Shown: positions 2,649-19,535 of the stretch, piece by piece | How the letters are laid out: each line of letters opens with the position of its first letter | Numbering within the stretch: the stretch's first letter is position 1 | NCBI GenBank assembly: GCA_031272965.1 | Contig: JAISSS010000048.1 | Coordinates: 1 to 43,052 of the forward strand | Direction of reading: 5' to 3' | From: Bacteroidales bacterium | Lineage (GTDB): Bacteria > Bacteroidota > Bacteroidia > Bacteroidales > Prolixibacteraceae | DNA length: 43,052 nt | Program-made: the position numbers and the translations under genes | The notes under the pieces: model-generated | Database searches by the model: none | Seen by the model: the letters and a program-made list of their open reading frames with translations, nothing else | Told to the model about the DNA's origin: nothing

Positions 2649-4082
2649 ATGAAACAAATGCTCACAATACTGTTTTTGGCAATAGCTGTTGCCGGTCATA
2701 CGCAGAGCGATTCGCTGCCCGCGTACCTGCACACCGCCGCACAGAACAACCCCGGCGTGATGGCGGCGTTCCATGCTTACGAGGCGGCATTGCAGAAAGT
2801 CCCGCAGGCTGCCGCTCTGCAAAATCCGACCCTCGACGCGGGGTTCTTCCTCAAACCGATGGAGCTCGTTGAAGGCCGACAAATCGCCGACTTCCGGCTG
2901 ATGCAGATGTTCCCCTGGTTCGGTACGCGGAAAGCCGCACGTACCGAAGCCCAAAATGCAGCACAAATGGCCTTTGAAGAGTTCCGCAACTCCCGCGACC
3001 AGCTATTTCTTGACGTCTATACTCAATGGTTCACACTTTGCCGGTTGCAACAGCAGGTAGCCAACAGCCGCGCCAATCGCAGCCTGCTGGCACAGCTTGA
3101 AACATTAGCCCTGCAAAATCCGGGAACCGCGTCCGGCAATTCACCCCAACCCAACATGCGCACTGCCCCCGACAATTCAACGCCTGCATCCGGCAGCTCA
3201 ATGCAGGGGATGAGCATGGGCAACGGACAACAGCCAACCACAACCGCTACCGCTACCAGCACAGAAATGCCCAATAACAGCATGGGAACAATGAGCGGCA
3301 ATACCTCGTCCGGCATGGCCGACGTGCTGCGCATCCAGATGGAAATAGCTGAAACAGACGCTAATACGGAAATATTACTGTCGGAAATAGCAACAGAAAA
3401 GGCGCGGTTTAATGCACTGCTAAACCGCAGCGCTGACAGTCCGGTGGAATTGCCCGATACCCTGCTGCAAATACCATTCCAGCTCGACCTCAACGCCACC
3501 CGCGCTCTGATTGACGCACAAAATCCCATGCTCGCCATGCTTGACGCGCAAGAACAGATGTATATTGCCCAAGCCGACATGCAGCGTAAAATGAGCTATC
3601 CGATGTTCGGCATCGGAATTGACTATATGCTCATTGCTCCATTGGAAGCCAACGGTTCAATGGGCAGTTCCATGTCCATGAACGGCAGGGATATGCTTAT
3701 GCCGATGTTATCCATTACGCTCCCGATTTGGCGCGGGAAATACCGCGCTCAACAACGTGAAACAGCCCTGCTGCAGCAGTCAGCACGCGAAAAACGCCAA
3801 AACGAACAAAACCTGCTCGAAGCAGAACTCCGCCGCGCCAGCTATCAGCTTGACGCCACTGCCCGCCGCACAGCGCTCTACCGCCACCAGTCAGAACTCG
3901 CCAAAACGACTTACAACATCACGGTCAGCGAATTTTCAACAGGCAAAAACACTCTCGCCAACGTGATTCAGGCGTCCCGACAACTCCTCGATTACGAACT
4001 GAAAATCGCCGAAGCCACTGCCAATTACAATACAACAGTTGCAGCAATACAGAAACTTATTGCAGGATTTAACAACGATTAG
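2649..4082 (+). CDS. TolC/CusC-like outer membrane efflux protein with Met-rich insert
   Basis: Outer membrane channel component of a tripartite efflux system. A signal peptide (MKQMLTILFLAIAVAGHTQ) is followed by the two OEP halves: the first with NPGVMAAFHAYEAALQKVPQ and MFPWFGTRKAART, the second with MLSITLPIWRGKYRAQQRE and a long helical C-terminus. Between the halves, about residues 157-223, lies a low-complexity insert rich in Met, Ser, Thr, Gly and Asn with eight methionines (for example MQGMSMGNG). Met-rich segments are typical of copper/silver efflux proteins, so a Cus-type metal role is inferred, not shown. No CusA/CusB-type partner is encoded nearby: the upstream gene is a helicase and the downstream DNA is a methylase remnant followed by an opposing gene. 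The channel may work with a pump encoded elsewhere. Confidence 0.85.
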   Translation: MKQMLTILFLAIAVAGHTQSDSLPAYLHTAAQNNPGVMAAFHAYEAALQKVPQAAALQNPTLDAGFFLKPMELVEGRQIADFRLMQMFPWFGTRKAARTEAQNAAQMAFEEFRNSRDQLFLDVYTQWFTLCRLQQQVANSRANRSLLAQLETLALQNPGTASGNSPQPNMRTAPDNSTPASGSSMQGMSMGNGQQPTTTATATSTEMPNNSMGTMSGNTSSGMADVLRIQMEIAETDANTEILLSEIATEKARFNALLNRSADSPVELPDTLLQIPFQLDLNATRALIDAQNPMLAMLDAQEQMYIAQADMQRKMSYPMFGIGIDYMLIAPLEANGSMGSSMSMNGRDMLMPMLSITLPIWRGKYRAQQRETALLQQSAREKRQNEQNLLEAELRRASYQLDATARRTALYRHQSELAKTTYNITVSEFSTGKNTLANVIQASRQLLDYELKIAEATANYNTTVAAIQKLIAGFNND

Positions 4083-4083
4083 C

Positions 4084-4217
4084 ATGGCAAACGAGAATTT
4101 ACAAAACGCAAACAAAGCAAAGACGAGTTCTACACGCAACTCTCTGATATTGAGAAGGAAGTGAAGCATTATACCGAACATTTTCGCTGTTCCGCCAATA
4201 CGTGGCACAACTTGTGA
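4084..4217 (+). pseudogene. Remnant of EcoRI-family DNA adenine methylase N-terminus, frameshifted
   Basis: Starting one base after the tolC-like stop, ATG at 4084 reads MANENLQNANKAK in one frame, then the adjacent frame reads KDEFYTQLSDIEKEVKHY up to TEHF before ending at the TGA at 4215-4217. Joined across a single-base frameshift near 4120-4123, this matches what I recall as the N-terminus of adenine-specific methyltransferases of the EcoRI_methylase family (K-K-D-E-F-Y-T-Q followed by an acidic helix). Full family members are roughly 300 residues or more; here about 36 recognisable residues survive, without the SAM-binding or catalytic motif. No restriction enzyme is nearby. The assignment rests on motif memory; the frameshift itself is directly visible. 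Confidence 0.6.
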
Positions 4218-4225
4218 GATACGGC

Positions 4226-4249
4226 AAAAAAACCCCGGCAAAGCCGAGG
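4226..4249 (-). terminator. Rho-independent terminator of the HEAT-DUF1080 gene
   Basis: Read on the minus strand: stem CCTCGGC, loop TTT, stem GCCGGGG (one G-U pair), then seven T residues (4226-4232). It sits about 27 bases past the stop codon at 4276, as expected for the end of the 8330-4276 operon. Confidence 0.85.
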
Positions 4250-4275
4250 TTCATAAATAGATTATCGAAAAATTA

Positions 4276-7047
4276 CTATTTCAGTTCCTTGATACGGATG
4301 TTCCTGAATTTCAGGTTAGAGCCGTGTCCGAGGAAGCCTATATGTCCGCTGGGGTTGAAGAGGCCGGGATGATTATTGTGGTCGGCAGTACCGTTTTTAG
4401 TAGCTTCCTTGAGGTCGGCATCAACAATCACTTTGCCGTTAAGGGTAACTTTTATACGGGTACCTTCGGCGCGGATTTCTTCGGAGTTCCATTCTCCCAC
4501 AGGTTTCATGGCGCCGTGTTTGGCGGGCACTATGCCATAAATTGAGCCGTGATGCTGATATGGCTTGATGTCTTTATACACGGGGTGTTCGCAGTCGAGA
4601 ATCTGGATTTCCATAGCGCTGTATGCGGCGTCGCCGTTCAGCGGAGCGCGGATACCTATGCCGTTATTGGCGGCGGGGGTCAGCTGGAACTCAAAGCGGA
4701 ACACGAAGTTGGCATATTCTTTGGCGGTCATCAGGTTTCCGTAGCCGCTGTCATTTTTCTTTGGCGCCACCACTATCACGCCGTCTTCGACAGTATAAGT
4801 AACCTTGTTCCCGACCCAGTTGTCCAGGTCTTTGCCGTTAAACAGGAGTTCAAATCCATCGGCGGCTTCAGCCTTGCTGAGGGTTGCCGTTCCCGCATCG
4901 CTACCGACTTTATCGATATATTGCTGGATATCAATCTTATAATACTGACTGTCTTCGCCTGAGATTTTTTCTTTTACTGTGGTCAGGATGCTTTTCACCT
5001 CGTCCCCTTTCAGTCCATCGCTTTCGCCGGGTGTTGGCAGAGCTATTTTCATGGCGGAGAACGCGGCAGGGGTGCTCAGGTCGCTGTCATCTAAAAACTT
5101 GGACACAAACAGCAGTCCCGACAGCGATTTCACTTGTGCGGCAGCCTGTAGAATCTTCGACTTGTCGGCAGTGGTCTTTGCAGCCGACATAATTTGCTCT
5201 AACTGGATGAGTTTCGTGTCGGATGTGAGCGACTGGCTGCCGAGCAGCCGCAGATATGCGCCGAGCGATGCTTCCGCCGAGCTGCTTCCACTTCGGTATT
5301 GGTTATACAGCAGTGATAATACGGAAGGATTTTGCCAGTTAACTAATGCCTTGGCGGCCGCATCCTTTTCTTCATTCGTACCTTTTTGCAGTATGGAAGC
5401 GATTTTTGCCTGCGCATCACCGCTCTTTAAATAGGGCAGTAATGGAACTAATTTCGCAGTAAGTCCTTTAGCATCAATCTTATCAAGCACCAACGATGAG
5501 GCAGGCACATTGTCGGCGGCTGTGTACAGATTGATGAGGGTATTTTGCAGCGACGATATTTCTTCGGGCTTGGAGGCTTTTTCGAGTGCGGTAATCAGGG
5601 CGGCGGTATTGTCGGCGCGGGCAGTTTTAGCGAGTGCGGCGAATGCGGCAGCTTTCACATCGGCATTTTGCGAAGAGATGCTGCTTTGGGCGAACTTGAA
5701 GAGCGCGGGCGTAGCGCGGGCGGCAGCTAACCGCAGCAACATGGCGCGTCCGTCGTTGTTCAGTTCCAACGGCTCAGGCGCCACTTCAAGCAGCGTTTTG
5801 TCAGTTACCTTGTTCAAAAGGACTTGTTCAATAGCCTTATAATCGGAATCAACCAGCAAATCCTGCTTGTTAATTAACAGGTTTGACAGATAAGGTATTG
5901 TGATTTCGTTGTTCTTGTCGTATGCAGACAAGGCGGTGATTGCGGCCTGCCGAACAGAGGCGTCGCCGGACGTGAGCGAGGGGGCAATCATATATTGCAG
6001 CACACCTGCACCGGATGTGGAACCGAAAGTCGAAAGCAGTTCGGTTTGCAGTTCGGGAGTGGACTTGCCGAACAGCGACGACCATTTGCCGATGGTGGAA
6101 GGCGCATATTCCTTAGCGATGTTCAGCACCGACTGCCGATATGCCTTGTCGTCCGATTTGATTTCTTTGAGCAGAGTCGGAGTAAGTTTGAACCCTTGTG
6201 TCTGGCCGAGCAGTTCAAGAGCTTCTGAACGATAGTGCAAAACATCGGAAGACGTGCAGTTTTTCAGCGCTTCTTTTGCTATTTTGTCGCCCAGTTTTTG
6301 GTTGCCGTTCCGGCTCAGCTCGGTAGCATATTGCAGGTACGACAGCACGGCGTTGTTGGCATCGGGCCTGTATCCGGCCGCTTTGACGGCACCCTGAAAA
6401 TACTTCAGCGATTTTGCGCTGCCAATGCTGGCCAATGCCGACAGGGTTTGTTTAGACGGCTGTAGCGACAGCAGTTTCTCTTCGGCCGGTTTATATTTCA
6501 GCTCACCGAGTGCCTTGATGAAGTCGGGCTGGTCGGTGGTAGCCGCGAGTATTTGTCGGGCGGCGGCGTCAGTGCCGATAGTAGTCAGTGTGGATAGAGC
6601 CGCATCGGAGGTGGCGCCGTTGAGGTATGCACCGAGCGCCGTCACGGTGGCATCACCGCCACAGAAAGCTAATTCGCGGATGAAATAGTCCTTCACTTCG
6701 GCATTAGAGGCCTTGGCGAGAGCAGCCAACAGCGCCGATTCTACCGGTGCCCGAAAATCCCCGTTGCCGGGGGCGCCTGCATAGCGGGCCAGACTGCTGA
6801 TTGCATACCGCGCCTGCAAATCGGAACCATCACTCGATGGCACAATCAAGGCGGCAATGCGGGCGATGCCGTCCTCTCCCAGACTGCTGTACTGGTTAAT
6901 GAGGCTCGCTACCTGCTCATTGCTACGCGCCGGAAGCTGTGCCAGCAGGTCGGCAATTTTTGTCTCCACGGTGCGGTTGTCCTGTGCGGACAGACTGACT
7001 GTCAGCGATAACGCAAACAGACAGGTAAAAATATATTTAATTTTCAT
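4276..7047 (-). CDS. Exported HEAT-repeat protein with C-terminal DUF1080 (3-keto-disaccharide hydrolase-type) domain
   Basis: Start placed at the ATG at 7047, giving a clean signal peptide (MKIKYIFTCLFALSLTVSLS, cleavage after AQ) and an AGGAAAAG leader; the in-frame ATG at 7080 would overlap the preceding gene and bury the signal. The product is 923 residues. Residues ~25-700 are Ala/Leu-rich repeating helical pairs of HEAT/armadillo character. The last ~194 residues form the DUF1080 beta-sandwich, beginning DGFELLFNGKDLDNW and including MEIQILDCEHPVYK, HHGSIYGIVPAK and SGHIGFLGHGSNLKFRNI. DUF1080 proteins are annotated as 3-keto-disaccharide hydrolases and often lie beside Gfo/Idh/MocA dehydrogenases, as here (20-base gap). 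The inferred role is periplasmic cleavage or binding of an oxidised glycoside; the substrate is unknown. Confidence 0.85.
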   Translation of the reverse strand: MKIKYIFTCLFALSLTVSLSAQDNRTVETKIADLLAQLPARSNEQVASLINQYSSLGEDGIARIAALIVPSSDGSDLQARYAISSLARYAGAPGNGDFRAPVESALLAALAKASNAEVKDYFIRELAFCGGDATVTALGAYLNGATSDAALSTLTTIGTDAAARQILAATTDQPDFIKALGELKYKPAEEKLLSLQPSKQTLSALASIGSAKSLKYFQGAVKAAGYRPDANNAVLSYLQYATELSRNGNQKLGDKIAKEALKNCTSSDVLHYRSEALELLGQTQGFKLTPTLLKEIKSDDKAYRQSVLNIAKEYAPSTIGKWSSLFGKSTPELQTELLSTFGSTSGAGVLQYMIAPSLTSGDASVRQAAITALSAYDKNNEITIPYLSNLLINKQDLLVDSDYKAIEQVLLNKVTDKTLLEVAPEPLELNNDGRAMLLRLAAARATPALFKFAQSSISSQNADVKAAAFAALAKTARADNTAALITALEKASKPEEISSLQNTLINLYTAADNVPASSLVLDKIDAKGLTAKLVPLLPYLKSGDAQAKIASILQKGTNEEKDAAAKALVNWQNPSVLSLLYNQYRSGSSSAEASLGAYLRLLGSQSLTSDTKLIQLEQIMSAAKTTADKSKILQAAAQVKSLSGLLFVSKFLDDSDLSTPAAFSAMKIALPTPGESDGLKGDEVKSILTTVKEKISGEDSQYYKIDIQQYIDKVGSDAGTATLSKAEAADGFELLFNGKDLDNWVGNKVTYTVEDGVIVVAPKKNDSGYGNLMTAKEYANFVFRFEFQLTPAANNGIGIRAPLNGDAAYSAMEIQILDCEHPVYKDIKPYQHHGSIYGIVPAKHGAMKPVGEWNSEEIRAEGTRIKVTLNGKVIVDADLKEATKNGTADHNNHPGLFNPSGHIGFLGHGSNLKFRNIRIKELK

Positions 7048-7067
7048 CTTTTCCTGTATTATAATTA

Positions 7068-8330
7068 TCAAATTTTCCATTCTCCACGCATGGGCTGGTT
7101 AATGAGTTTGTTAGCTTCCTCGTCGTTGACAAATTCCAGTTTTTCGGGGTCAAATTCGAGGTTACGGCCGAGGCGCAAGGCTACCACCCCCATGTTGACG
7201 ATGGTTGCCGAGCGGAATCCGTTCACCTCGTTGAGGGCGAATTTCTGGCGTGTCTTCACGGATTCACTGAACAGGGTAATTTGCGGGGCAGGGTCTGGCA
7301 GCGAATCGATGAACTGTTGCAGATTGGGGATTGTGGAACGAAATCCCTTGTATATTTTGCCTTTCGGCCCTTCGATATATGCGGCGTCCTTGTCGGCATT
7401 CGCGCCGTCGAGGACGATTTGGCATCCGTCGTCGTAAGTATAAGTGATTTTACGCCACGTACCGATAGCGTCGTAATGCTGTTGGGGGGCGTCAATTTCC
7501 ACTTTTACGGGGCTGGTATTGTCCTTTCCGAGGAAGTATTGCACGGGGTCAATGTAGTGTTGTCCCATGTCGCCGAGACCGCCACCATCATAGTCCCAAT
7601 AGCCGCGGAAAGTGCCGTGAGTACGGTGCACGTTGTACGGTTTTTTAGGAGCCGGACCGAGCCACATCTCGTAGTCTAATTCAGGCGGCACGGGTTGGGG
7701 CTTCAGACCGGTTTTGCCAACCCAGTAGAACTTCCAGTCGAAGCCGGTAACGCCGCTGATAGTAACCTTGAGGGGCCATCCGAGTACGCCGCTTTCGATG
7801 ACCTTTTTGAGGGGCTTTACGGTGGTTCCCAGACCGTAGAAATTGTCTTTAAAGCGGAACCACGTGTTGAGGCGGAACATGCGACCTGTAGCGCTGATAA
7901 CTTCCATTACGCGCTTGCCTTCGCCGATGGTGCGGGTCATAGGCTTCTCGCACCACACATCTTTTCCGGCCTGCGCCGCCATTACCGACATGATTCCGTG
8001 CCAGTGCGGAGGCGTGGCTATATGTACGATGTCAACATCTGTGCGTAACAGCAGCTCGCGGAAGTCGGCATACCCCTGTACGCCGGAACCGACCCTGTTG
8101 AGTACGTTTTCCAGATGCTTCTTATCGGCATCGCATATTGCCACAAGGCGGGTGCCTTCATAGCCGATATGCCCCTGCCCCATGCCACCCACGCCAATAA
8201 TGGCCTTCGTCAGCTGGTCGCTCGGCGCCATATAGCCCCGCCCCAATACGAAACGCGGAACGATAGATATACCTGCCGTTACCGCTAATGACTTCTTCAA
8301 GAAATCTCTTCTATTATGTCTCTCTGTCAT
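7068..8330 (-). CDS. Tat-exported Gfo/Idh/MocA-family oxidoreductase
   Basis: NAD(P)-dependent sugar or inositol dehydrogenase-type enzyme, 420 residues. The N-terminus has a twin-arginine signal (NRRDFLKKSLAVTAGISIVP), suggesting export with bound cofactor. The Rossmann motif is GVGGMGQGH, and the family Glu-Lys-Pro motif appears in DVWCEKPMTRT. The remainder, with MWLGPAPKKPYNVHRTHGTF and GGGLGDMGQHYIDPVQY, is typical of the large Bacteroidota/Planctomycetota clade of exported Gfo/Idh/MocA proteins. It is first in a two-gene operon with the HEAT-DUF1080 protein. A plausible job is oxidation of a glycoside to a 3-keto form, or the reverse, to labilise the glycosidic bond; the substrate cannot be read from sequence. 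Confidence 0.9.
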   Translation of the reverse strand: MTERHNRRDFLKKSLAVTAGISIVPRFVLGRGYMAPSDQLTKAIIGVGGMGQGHIGYEGTRLVAICDADKKHLENVLNRVGSGVQGYADFRELLLRTDVDIVHIATPPHWHGIMSVMAAQAGKDVWCEKPMTRTIGEGKRVMEVISATGRMFRLNTWFRFKDNFYGLGTTVKPLKKVIESGVLGWPLKVTISGVTGFDWKFYWVGKTGLKPQPVPPELDYEMWLGPAPKKPYNVHRTHGTFRGYWDYDGGGLGDMGQHYIDPVQYFLGKDNTSPVKVEIDAPQQHYDAIGTWRKITYTYDDGCQIVLDGANADKDAAYIEGPKGKIYKGFRSTIPNLQQFIDSLPDPAPQITLFSESVKTRQKFALNEVNGFRSATIVNMGVVALRLGRNLEFDPEKLEFVNDEEANKLINQPMRGEWKI

Positions 8331-15768: not shown

Positions 15769-17093
15769 ACATATTAAACTATATACGAAGTGCCGGACGC
15801 GGCAAGGCGGCTAACCGGACAGAACGGGCAGCCATGCACGACGTGTTTCTGGCCGATGCGTTAGACGGATTTGCCAGCGTTGAGGGTGCCCATGCCGAGG
15901 CCATAGAACGCCTGCAACAGCGCATCGACCACAAAGCACAACCGCCGCATACAGCATATCGCTGGTATGCGGCCGCAGCCGTGCTCGTTCTGTTGCTCGC
16001 CGTCAGCGGGTATCTGCTCACAATACAGCAACCGGAATACCGGAATGTAACCGACGCCGCCGAAGCAATACTGCCGGAACACAACAGCGAACAGCCCGCC
16101 ACCACGCAATATGCTGTCACCCGGACAGAGGCCGTTGAGGAAACGTCGGAAAGTACACCGACAGATACGCCTCAAGCCATGCCTGCATCGCAACCGCCCC
16201 TCCCTGTCAGGCACACTGCAACTGCGGAACAGTATGCACCGGCAGCCGTAGCGCCCCAAGCCACAATCACTCTTCAAGAGACAAGCCGCTCCGCAGAAAA
16301 GGCTGTTGCCAACAGCGAAGAATTAAGCATAAGCGAAGAGCCCGCTGAAGATGCAAACCCACAGGATGCCAAAACTGCCGCCATTGCCACCACCGGACAA
16401 TTATCGGGCAATAGCATCACAACCAATAATATGGTAATAAAAGAACAAAAGATAAAAATAGAGCTTGAACCAAAGCACAGAGTTTTGGAACGAATTGGCG
16501 ATGTCCCCAACACTGCACCGATTTTTCCTTCCTCCGCAGGCCTCGCCAACGATGCCATCGTTATGGCTTATGGCATCAGACAGCCCGCTGTAAAAACTGC
16601 CGATTCTGCACCAGCCGGAACATCCCGCGTTGCCGGTTATGTGGTTGACGGGAACGGCAAGCCTGTTTCCGGCGCTGTTATCATAAATGACAACAACACT
16701 CTCGCAGTTGCCGACCACAATGGGCGATTTGAGTGGCAGGCCGCGTCAAATGCCGTTGCTCAAGTGACCATGGCTGGATGTGAAACTGTTACCATAATTG
16801 CCAGCGAACGCCTGCAAGTCGTTGTCGTGCCGTGCGGGACGATGTCGGCAGTGCGGCAACACCCGCCGGAGAAAACGTTCCGCCGCTATGTCAGGAATCA
16901 TCTACAGCAACAGGACGGCTGCAGGGGCGAGGTAGAACTCGCCTTCACTGCGGGCGACAACGGCATCGCCACCGGTATAACCGTCAGCAGGTCGTTATGC
17001 GCAGAAGCCGACATCGAAGCCATCCGCTTAGTGATGACATGGAACCGGTGGCGTAGCGGCAAACAAAACATTACCATCAAGTTCGGCACATAA
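15765..17093 (+). CDS. Membrane protein with anti-sigma-like N-terminus, carboxypeptidase-regulatory-like and TonB-like C-terminal domains
   Basis: 442 residues. Residues 1-65 are cytoplasmic and carry a DVFLADALDGF motif that I associate with sigma-linked membrane proteins in this phylum. One membrane helix spans about 67-86 (WYAAAAVLVLLLAVSGYLLT). A long Ala/Pro/Thr/Glu-rich periplasmic linker follows (about 90-270). Then comes a CarboxypepD_reg-like beta-sandwich starting SRVAGYVVDGNGKPVSGAVI, and a C-terminal TonB_C-like fold (DGCRGEVELAFTAGDNGIAT to FGT). A reasonable reading is an anti-sigma or energy-transducer-like sensor coupled to the overlapping ECF sigma gene. Binding of the sigma factor is inferred only from overlap and topology. 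Confidence 0.75.
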   Translation: MNILNYIRSAGRGKAANRTERAAMHDVFLADALDGFASVEGAHAEAIERLQQRIDHKAQPPHTAYRWYAAAAVLVLLLAVSGYLLTIQQPEYRNVTDAAEAILPEHNSEQPATTQYAVTRTEAVEETSESTPTDTPQAMPASQPPLPVRHTATAEQYAPAAVAPQATITLQETSRSAEKAVANSEELSISEEPAEDANPQDAKTAAIATTGQLSGNSITTNNMVIKEQKIKIELEPKHRVLERIGDVPNTAPIFPSSAGLANDAIVMAYGIRQPAVKTADSAPAGTSRVAGYVVDGNGKPVSGAVIINDNNTLAVADHNGRFEWQAASNAVAQVTMAGCETVTIIASERLQVVVVPCGTMSAVRQHPPEKTFRRYVRNHLQQQDGCRGEVELAFTAGDNGIATGITVSRSLCAEADIEAIRLVMTWNRWRSGKQNITIKFGT

Positions 17094-17136
17094 ATTATCA
17101 ACATATAAATTAACTGAAACACAAATACTTATAGCC

Positions 17137-18018
17137 ATGACGTCATCCGATAAAATAGTCAGTTGCATAGCCCTTAACAAGCGTTACGGCGATGTGCAAG
17201 CCCTGCATGATGTGTCATTTGAGGTAGAGCGCGGCGAGATTTTCGGGTTAATAGGTCCTGACGGCGCCGGAAAGAGTACTCTGTTCAGAATCCTGACCTC
17301 GCTGCTGCTTGCCGATTCCGGCACTGCCATCGTGGATAGCCTGAATGTGGTGAGCGACTACAAGCAGTTACGCCGCCGCATCGGGTACATGCCCGGCCGG
17401 TTCTCGCTGTACCAGGATTTAACGGTCGAAGAAAATCTCAACTTTTTTGCAACAGTATTCAATACTACTATCACCGAAAACTACCACCTCATAAAGGATA
17501 TATACAGCCAGATAGAGCCGTTTAAGGAGCGGAAAGCAGGGAAGCTGTCAGGGGGCATGAAGCAGAAATTAGCCCTCTCATGTGCGCTGATTCACAAACC
17601 ATCGGTATTGTTTCTGGATGAACCGACCACCGGCGTTGACCCCGTATCGCGGAAAGAATTTTGGGAGATGCTGAAAAAATTGAAGAAAGAGAACATCACT
17701 ATCGTCGTTTCAACACCTTATATGGATGAGGCGCGACTGTGCGACCGCATTGCACTGTTACAGCACGGGCAGATACTGACCATAGAAAGCCCGCAAAAAA
17801 TCACCGCAGGGTTCCCGCAAAAACTCTACCGCGCCCACGCAGCCGACAACCACGGGCTGCTCGTGAGCCTGCGTAATGACAAAAACATTCGCTCCGTATT
17901 CATGTTTGGCGAATATCTGCATATCCTCTTCGTCGGGGAACCGGACATCACAATCCCCAATCTCACCGAAATAAAGCCCTCAATCGAAGACTGCTTCATG
18001 TATCTGATGAACAGGTAA
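17137..18018 (+). CDS. ABC transporter ATP-binding protein (ABC-2 export type), no permease adjacent
   Basis: 293 residues: Walker A GPDGAGKST, Q-loop YMPGRFSLYQDLTVEENL, signature LSGGMKQKLALSCALIH, Walker B VLFLDEPTTGVDP and a C-terminal extension typical of multidrug/ABC-2 exporters (YhiH, DrrA type). Such ATPases usually sit with HlyD-like and ABC-2 permease genes; none is here, as the next gene is convergent. The 43-base gap from the TonB-like gene has no TAnnTTTG element, so it is probably read through from the sigma operon. Confidence 0.9.
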   Translation: MTSSDKIVSCIALNKRYGDVQALHDVSFEVERGEIFGLIGPDGAGKSTLFRILTSLLLADSGTAIVDSLNVVSDYKQLRRRIGYMPGRFSLYQDLTVEENLNFFATVFNTTITENYHLIKDIYSQIEPFKERKAGKLSGGMKQKLALSCALIHKPSVLFLDEPTTGVDPVSRKEFWEMLKKLKKENITIVVSTPYMDEARLCDRIALLQHGQILTIESPQKITAGFPQKLYRAHAADNHGLLVSLRNDKNIRSVFMFGEYLHILFVGEPDITIPNLTEIKPSIEDCFMYLMNR

Positions 18019-18048
18019 CTAAACAGAATCAGCATAGAGGGGCACAAG

Positions 18049-18084
18049 TAATGCAGGGACAGGATGCGCTCCATCCCTGCATTA
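18049..18084. terminator. Strong stem-loop between convergent genes
   Basis: TAATGCAGGGA (18049-18059) pairs perfectly with TCCCTGCATTA (18074-18084), an 11-base-pair stem with a 14-base loop that can add a GGA/TCC pairing. It lies 30 bases after the ABC ATPase stop and 39 before the end of the opposing gene. No T tract follows on either strand, so it may be a bidirectional stabilising or factor-dependent terminator hairpin. Confidence 0.6.
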
Positions 18085-18122
18085 TTAGAGGGCAATTCAA
18101 TAAGGGAACCGAGTTGCCAAAA

Positions 18123-19535
18123 TCAGTTTTTCTTTGCCATCTCCAATGCGGAAGTCGTCGTATAATATTTAACCAGCATATTCGGGACTTCCCATTCGGG
18201 CATTTTGCCACGTTTAAGGAAGCGCAGATAGGTCTTGGTTACTTCTCCGAAGTGGGCTTCGTGGCCGACCTTATATTTGTCGGGAATATCTACCGTCCAG
18301 AGCTTGTCTTCCAATTTGACGAGTTTCAGGCCGGGATACATATTTGCGATATCCTGATTAACAGCCTTTTGAAGTCCCGCCTCGAAAGTTGCCAGGCCAT
18401 CGTTGATAGTTGCACGGATAAATACGGCAGGTTTATAATTTTCTTCGGCGCCTTGCTTAATAATAAGTTCACACAGCGAACCGCGCATGATACTGTAGTG
18501 GGTGTCGCCGGTTCCTTCCGGGGCTTGAAAGTTCCAAATGACCGATACTTTAGCGGTTTTTCCCCGCAGTTTATAGATAAATTCCCCGTTTGAATAGACT
18601 TGTAGGGCGCCATCGGCTACGTTGTTTTTCAGGAAGTCGGGGAAGGCATCCATTTGGGTAGCCTGCGTAAACTGTTCCTTTGTAACAGCTGTTGGCCAGT
18701 GCCGGGCGCTGAGAATCTCAACATCGCTTTTTTTCAGCGGCTGTTCGGGGAAGGCTTCCCATTGAATAAGGTCAACCAGATGCGTTGTTACGTCAACGAT
18801 TCCTTCGCCCTGCTGGGTTACGTCAAAGAACCACGCCGGACGCTTAACGGTCTTCCCCGCAACGGGCTTATAGAAGTGGTGTACGCTTTCTTTGGATATT
18901 GCCGGTTCATCAGGCGTTCCGTCCACAAGTTTGCCGAATACTTCGGGAATTTTGGACAGCTCACGCTGGATGATGGTAGTAATCTCAAAGCGCTCTGTCA
19001 TAATGTCGTAAAGGAACAGCCCTTTTTCTGTAGCAGTATTAAAGGCGGCTTCCAGCTTGTCAAAGCCTTCTTTGCTGATGACTAACGGCTTATCTGCGAA
19101 TACATTTAGCCCTGCATTGACAGAGGCTGTGATGTAGTCGATTTTGCGGTTATTATTACCGGCAAGCACTACCACGTTACCGGCCTTCTCGTCGAGGGCT
19201 TTTTGCAGGAAGTCGGCGCCATAGTAAGTTTTTTCCGTCCATGCGGTGGGGGCGTCGGCGCGGGAATTAAAGCCTTCGATTGCGGCCAGATAGTCGGCTA
19301 CGTCCGGCCCTTGCGGGGCATAGACGTGTACTGTCGGCGCTATTTGCTCATACATGAGCTTCTGAACCAGCGAGGCATGGAAATGACCGGGGTCAATGGT
19401 GATGAGCTTCACCTCGCCATTAGCACCCGTAAACGCAGGCGCAGAGGTAGTATCGGTACCGGGCTTTTTGCTGCCTCCGGTGCATCCTGCCAGCGCTACC
19501 AATAGCAGGGGATAGATATGAACATGTTTCATCAT
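18123..19535 (-). CDS. Gfo/Idh/MocA-type oxidoreductase lipoprotein with putative oxidoreductase C-terminal domain
   Basis: 470 residues with a lipoprotein signal (YPLLLVALAGC, Cys18), so anchored in the periplasm or outer membrane. The N-terminal half is Rossmann-like: ITIDPGHFHASLVQKL, VVVLAGNNNRKIDYITAS and NVFADKPLVISKEGFD, where Asp replaces the Glu of the usual EKP motif. The C-terminal part (GIVDVTTHLVDLIQWEAFPE onward) matches what I recall as the Oxidoreduct_C domain. These proteins are part of 3-keto-glycoside metabolism in Bacteroides-type genomes, linking it functionally to the DUF1080 operon 10 kb away. ATG codons at 19535 and 19532 are both possible starts. Confidence 0.85.
   Translation of the reverse strand: MMKHVHIYPLLLVALAGCTGGSKKPGTDTTSAPAFTGANGEVKLITIDPGHFHASLVQKLMYEQIAPTVHVYAPQGPDVADYLAAIEGFNSRADAPTAWTEKTYYGADFLQKALDEKAGNVVVLAGNNNRKIDYITASVNAGLNVFADKPLVISKEGFDKLEAAFNTATEKGLFLYDIMTERFEITTIIQRELSKIPEVFGKLVDGTPDEPAISKESVHHFYKPVAGKTVKRPAWFFDVTQQGEGIVDVTTHLVDLIQWEAFPEQPLKKSDVEILSARHWPTAVTKEQFTQATQMDAFPDFLKNNVADGALQVYSNGEFIYKLRGKTAKVSVIWNFQAPEGTGDTHYSIMRGSLCELIIKQGAEENYKPAVFIRATINDGLATFEAGLQKAVNQDIANMYPGLKLVKLEDKLWTVDIPDKYKVGHEAHFGEVTKTYLRFLKRGKMPEWEVPNMLVKYYTTTSALEMAKKN

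Follow-up and report, generated by a model that had tools for sequence, protein, structure and literature searches.

The short stretch directly behind the tolC-like efflux gene, positions 4084 to 4231 (+ strand) of the window, is very probably a non-functional remnant of an EcoRI-family (PF13651) N6-adenine DNA methyltransferase gene, which arrived behind tolC and then decayed. Here, the window is the whole 43,052-nt stretch of Bacteroidales DNA that was analysed. The remnant consists of three collinear pieces in three different frames and keeps about 53 of the about 350 residues of an intact EcoRI-family enzyme. The single open frame of about 320 to 390 aa that in a working enzyme covers the whole PF13651 profile is absent, a working methyltransferase product is impossible, and the remnant does nothing now. 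Members of PF13651 methylate adenine in their target site, and by family membership the ancestor of the remnant would have done the same.

Three collinear pieces of a methyltransferase gene

The tolC/cusC-like outer membrane efflux gene (2649 to 4082, + strand; Pfam PF02321 OEP, E 1e-30) is complete at 477 aa, and its C terminus aligns with those of relatives. Its stop codon, TAG at 4080 to 4082, is separated by a single C from the methylase ATG at 4084. Piece 1 (4084 to 4122, + strand, frame 1) comprises this start codon and MANENLQNANKAK, and lies in a 26-codon open reading frame (ORF). Its ATG lines up with the start codons of intact homologues, L204 and L198 among them, the nearest intact start being MANENLQ in L204. 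Piece 2 (4119 to 4187, + strand, frame 3) reads KDEFYTQLSDIEKEVKHYTEHFR, that is, KDEFYTQLSDIE through to EHFR; homology extends to 4187 and the frame is closed by a TGA at 4215 to 4217. Piece 3 (4181 to 4231, + strand, frame 2) reads FSLFRQYVAQLVRYGKK and comes from the middle of the enzyme. Together the pieces cover profile positions 1 to 32 and then 148 to 164, in the correct order and on the correct strand.

Several searches agreed on the family. First, piece 2 alone matched Pfam PF13651 EcoRI_methylase at 34.3 bits (E 2.2e-8; curated cut-off, 26.4 bits), and pieces 1 and 2 joined (36 residues) at 44.7 bits (E 1.4e-11). Second, an unguided six-frame PF13651 search of the organism's own genome recovered the remnant at E 3.6e-7 and 30.7 bits, again above the cut-off. 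Third, piece 3 was placed at PF13651 profile positions 148 to 164 in a whole-library Pfam scan (E 0.048), and tblastn of the intact homologue L005 against the whole window found it at E 3.6e-4 with 82% identity. Finally, when a profile built from 16 homologues was run on the six-frame translation of the window, the three best matches were piece 2 (33.8 bits), piece 3 (12.3 bits), and piece 1 (5.6 bits), compared to a best score of 8.0 bits and a mean of 3.1 bits when the window was dinucleotide-shuffled 60 times; in 300 shuffles of positions 4083 to 4275, the best score was 4.9 bits. Pieces 2 and 3 therefore score above all 60 window shuffles, and piece 1, which is insignificant alone, rests on its position and on the roughly 10 bits that it adds when joined to piece 2. 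The N-terminal part is up to 81% identical over 36 residues to intact Bacteroidales enzymes (L204), and the middle piece up to 88% identical over 16 residues (L190). Neither tblastn with intact homologues nor the 16-homologue profile found further parts of the enzyme in the window. The pieces, their order, and their homology are direct observations.

These results bear out a sequence-only reading which had named the family, had taken two adjacent frames to spell the N terminus of an EcoRI_methylase, and had placed its start one base after the efflux gene stop. The single frameshift that it described is also present. Its view that the homology is lost after about 36 residues was incorrect, as 17 further residues follow in frame 2 (4181 to 4231).

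Lesions and the neighbouring terminator

Compared to intact enzymes, the remnant carries three lesions. The first is a small frameshift near codon 13. The second, between the segments ending in EHFR and containing FSLF, is an internal deletion that removed about 100 codons and is out of frame; pieces 2 and 3 overlap in the T run at 4181 to 4184. Since an internal piece of the enzyme survives, decay included an internal deletion and not only the loss of an end. The third is the absence of the 3′ half, the homology ending after the GKK codons. The A run at 4226 to 4232 (+ strand) is at once these GKK codons, the end of methyltransferase homology, and the U tract of the terminator of the opposing gene. 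That joins fall in short one-base runs would fit illegitimate recombination.

The terminator itself, which the sequence-only reading had also pointed out after the remnant, is an intrinsic-terminator-like hairpin of 10 pairs followed by the U tract (4226 to 4252, − strand), with a fold of −15 kcal/mol and a z score of −3.54, although a simple consensus terminator scan did not list it. The opposing gene (4276 to 7080, − strand) encodes HEAT repeats and a PF06439 3-keto-disaccharide hydrolase domain (Pfam). It adjoins a Gfo/Idh-like oxidoreductase gene here and in 7 of the 11 relatives fetched (20 genomes searched). The 3′ neighbourhood seen here was not found in relatives, all 11 of those fetched having other genes there. 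As no sister species from the same genus came to light, the intact ancestral state at the locus was not seen.

The junction with tolC and alternative explanations

Homology of tolC with its nearest counterpart in named records, that of L040 (59% identity; a Dysgonamonadaceae metagenome-assembled genome), runs to LIAGFN, the last conserved residues, which end about 10 nt upstream of the methylase ATG. The join therefore lies within about 10 nt 5′ of the methyltransferase ATG. Methyltransferase homology at E 1e-3 near tolC was found in none of the 109 other loci fetched (110 including the organism's own, the only one to show it), and tolC was found near the methyltransferase in none of 46 methyltransferase loci. 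Among the loci seen, the neighbourhood is thus private to this genome, and relatives do not conserve the string as a short ORF behind tolC.

What usually follows tolC is different. A long ORF starts 200 nt or less behind the gene in 79 of the 87 loci with tolC readable as far as its stop codon (own copy included), and it is cusB-like in those inspected. The organism's own cusB (Pfam HlyD_D23, HMBD, HMA; 61% identical to the L043 protein) is on another contig, C123, at whose very end it lies (16895 to 18397 of 18397; L163), truncated about 6 residues from its expected start. The proposal that genes once downstream of tolC had been lost is therefore better replaced by one of separation, as cusB persists in the genome. 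This parting of tolC from cusB in the assembly could be due either to incoming DNA, which we consider much the likelier, or to an assembly fault. In the same genome, an ACR_tran (RND pump) gene copy at G000:C113:5546-8688 appears broken, having one TAG in frame and its second half split, and adjoins an intact copy.

We infer the route of arrival, the order of the lesions, and the split from cusB as follows. A methyltransferase gene, alone or with a restriction partner, would have arrived, probably by horizontal transfer, and settled immediately after tolC; its join, at the very end of tolC, would have parted tolC from cusB. Decay would then have brought the frameshift near codon 13, the deletion of about 100 internal codons at the T run, and a truncation that took away all that lay beyond about codon 164, as far as the A/U run of the adjacent terminator. 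Several observations go against this explanation. With the join where it is, the ATG has no more than about 10 nt of leader in front of it, a tight fit for which the explanation does not account. The lack of an endonuclease relic beside the remnant and of a sister species with an intact locus also counts against it, as does the draft state of the genome, in which the contig carrying cusB stops just within that gene.

The strongest alternative, which we nonetheless consider unlikely, is that the remnant is genuine but its junction with tolC is a fault of assembly or strain mixture, so that cusB truly follows tolC and the remnant belongs next to the opposing gene at some other place or in another strain. 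The usual position of a cusB-like gene close behind tolC in relatives would agree with this, as would the location of the organism's own cusB at the very end of C123, since in this draft genome (155 contigs, 2.6 Mb, 84% complete) any given spot has a chance of roughly 1% of lying within 50 nt of a contig end. However, the sequence at the end of C123 is found neither in the window nor on any other contig, unlike a branch in an assembly graph, and positions 4030 to 4280 are present only once in the assembly. Furthermore, a random chimera would not be expected to place its join exactly 5′ of a conserved start codon and no more than about 10 nt from the point where tolC homology ends. Much less probable still is that the frameshift or the internal deletion is a sequencing or assembly error and that the cell has a working gene. 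In favour of this, the assembly is a draft, and one of the lesions, a short frameshift, lies where the sequence is rich in A. On the other side, the gene has lost about 100 codons from its interior and its entire 3′ half, the sequence enters the terminator of the neighbour directly, no other part of the enzyme was found in the window, and the genome has just one further member of the family, a divergent ORF on contig C88. A chance origin of the strings can be dismissed, as can a genuine short peptide gene whose 26-codon ORF begins one base after the tolC stop as in coupled genes, given the E value of 2.2e-8 to a curated family, the lower scores of all 60 shuffles, and the lack of the string behind tolC in all 109 other loci.

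Family spread and restriction partners

PF13651 was found in 14 of the 140 genomes of the organism's family (13 of 139 without its own) and in 54 of the 393 sampled genomes of the order (53 of 392 without its own), a patchy spread such as would be expected of a mobile gene. A protein search with the joined peptide found family members in 12 phage and 60 plasmid records, none of them a close source, and the remnant DNA had no match at 1e-5 to phage records. Local DNA alignments with intact genes extend slightly upstream of the remnant ATG. Tracing the origin by the 14 to 16 nt before the ATG was dropped, as the leader profile did no better there than at many ordinary gene starts of the window. 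The genome holds a second, divergent PF13651 protein in an open frame (G000:C88:577-1128; L001; 441 aa, match 130 to 312), which is its sole other member of the family.

The remnant resembles the EcoRI-family enzymes L204, L190, and L005 in its start and 36 N-terminal residues and in its middle piece (82 to 88% identity), and is unlike them in how little it retains. It also differs from EcoRI-type Type II systems, where a cognate endonuclease gene stands beside that of the methyltransferase. Such a gene is just upstream of the intact methyltransferase in L005, L007, and L123, assigned in L123 by Pfam (PF02963) and in L005 and L007 by 86 to 88% identity to L123. Neither gene nor relic of this endonuclease was found in the window by tblastn of the L123 protein (best E, 0.47), and a PF02963 search of the organism's own genome was empty, but control genomes were silent too. 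An earlier proposal of a past insertion of a restriction-modification gene is supported, its family assignment being upheld by the PF13651 match; a whole restriction-modification system may have inserted at tolC.

A different gene accompanies the methyltransferase in other Bacteroidales. In L220 to L226, L228, L230, and L231, an ORF with GmrSD_N and HNH-like domains stands downstream of the EcoRI-family methyltransferase in place of an EcoRI endonuclease; the L228 protein was tested and identified by PADLOC as REase_II (2.3e-149), and the remaining loci were judged by look. This suggests that the GmrSD_N/HNH gene is a second type of partner for EcoRI-family methyltransferases. Such cassettes, which make up most of L220 to L231, include the nearest relative of the N terminus of the remnant (L204, which is the same place as L228). 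Unlike them, the window has neither their endonuclease gene, there being no GmrSD_N/HNH gene among the ORFs adjoining the remnant, nor the leader RNA described below.

A candidate leader RNA of Bacteroidales restriction genes

Outside the window, comparison of intact loci pointed to a conserved leader of about 250 nt that abuts the ATG and is closed by the inverted repeat GATTGATAG/CTATCAATC. With one or both arms exact as the criterion, this repeat was present just before the ATG in 12 of 46 methyltransferase loci, with both arms exact in 9. The loci concerned, L220 to L231 and L232 to L248, are from genomes of other Bacteroidales, and in many of them the leader stands upstream of an intact EcoRI-family methyltransferase gene. 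Among the 393 sampled Bacteroidales genomes, the repeat occurred in 17 distinct places in 13 genomes, of which 14 were directly before a PF13651 gene, and the reversed control gave none among the matches listed.

RNAalifold on an alignment of 10 leaders gave a poor consensus with a covariation term of −0.44, which either speaks against a leader structure or reflects two badly aligning sub-groups. As we ascribed it to the sub-groups, a per-helix complement test on the 10 leaders was used in its place, in which pairing between the two strands of a helix within one sequence was compared to 90 cross pairs between sequences. Helix P2 had a mean complement of 9.5 nt within a sequence compared to 5.0 nt between sequences, with 1 of the 90 cross pairs reaching 9.5 nt. 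The corresponding values were 8.1 and 5.0 nt for helix P3 (2 of 90 cross pairs) and 8.0 and 5.2 nt for helix P1 (5 of 90). By this test, covariation among relatives supports the leader RNA. At the gathering threshold, neither the window nor any of the 12 leader loci had an Rfam match; below it, chance-level matches (E up to 5) appeared in 6 of these 12 loci. Scanning the wider loci for tRNA and tmRNA genes was negative in 9 of the 12.

The leader is also found before other genes. In L247 the same leader precedes an MmeI-type IIG restriction gene, and in L236 it precedes ORFs in broken frames which carry methyltransferase-like motifs and are, we presume, probably another methyltransferase. L243 has the inverted repeat without the leader. 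The leader looks like a candidate structured regulatory RNA common to unrelated restriction systems.

That the gene of the remnant once had such a leader is suggested by its nearest relative, L204, and by that relative only. It is a tentative idea, and one more probably wrong than right, that the remnant comes from a Bacteroidales restriction cassette governed by the leader RNA, whose coding part was cut off at the ATG, spliced behind tolC, and then decayed.

Significance

The remnant is an ordinary pseudogene remnant, produced by an ordinary kind of gene decay. It nevertheless offers a small, clear case of a restriction-modification gene dying after its arrival, with joins legible to a few bases, at a site that is also the point where an efflux operon came apart. 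The real value of the case is that comparison with intact relatives exposed an apparently covarying leader RNA before several kinds of Bacteroidales restriction genes. This candidate RNA is more interesting than the remnant and merits a study of its own.
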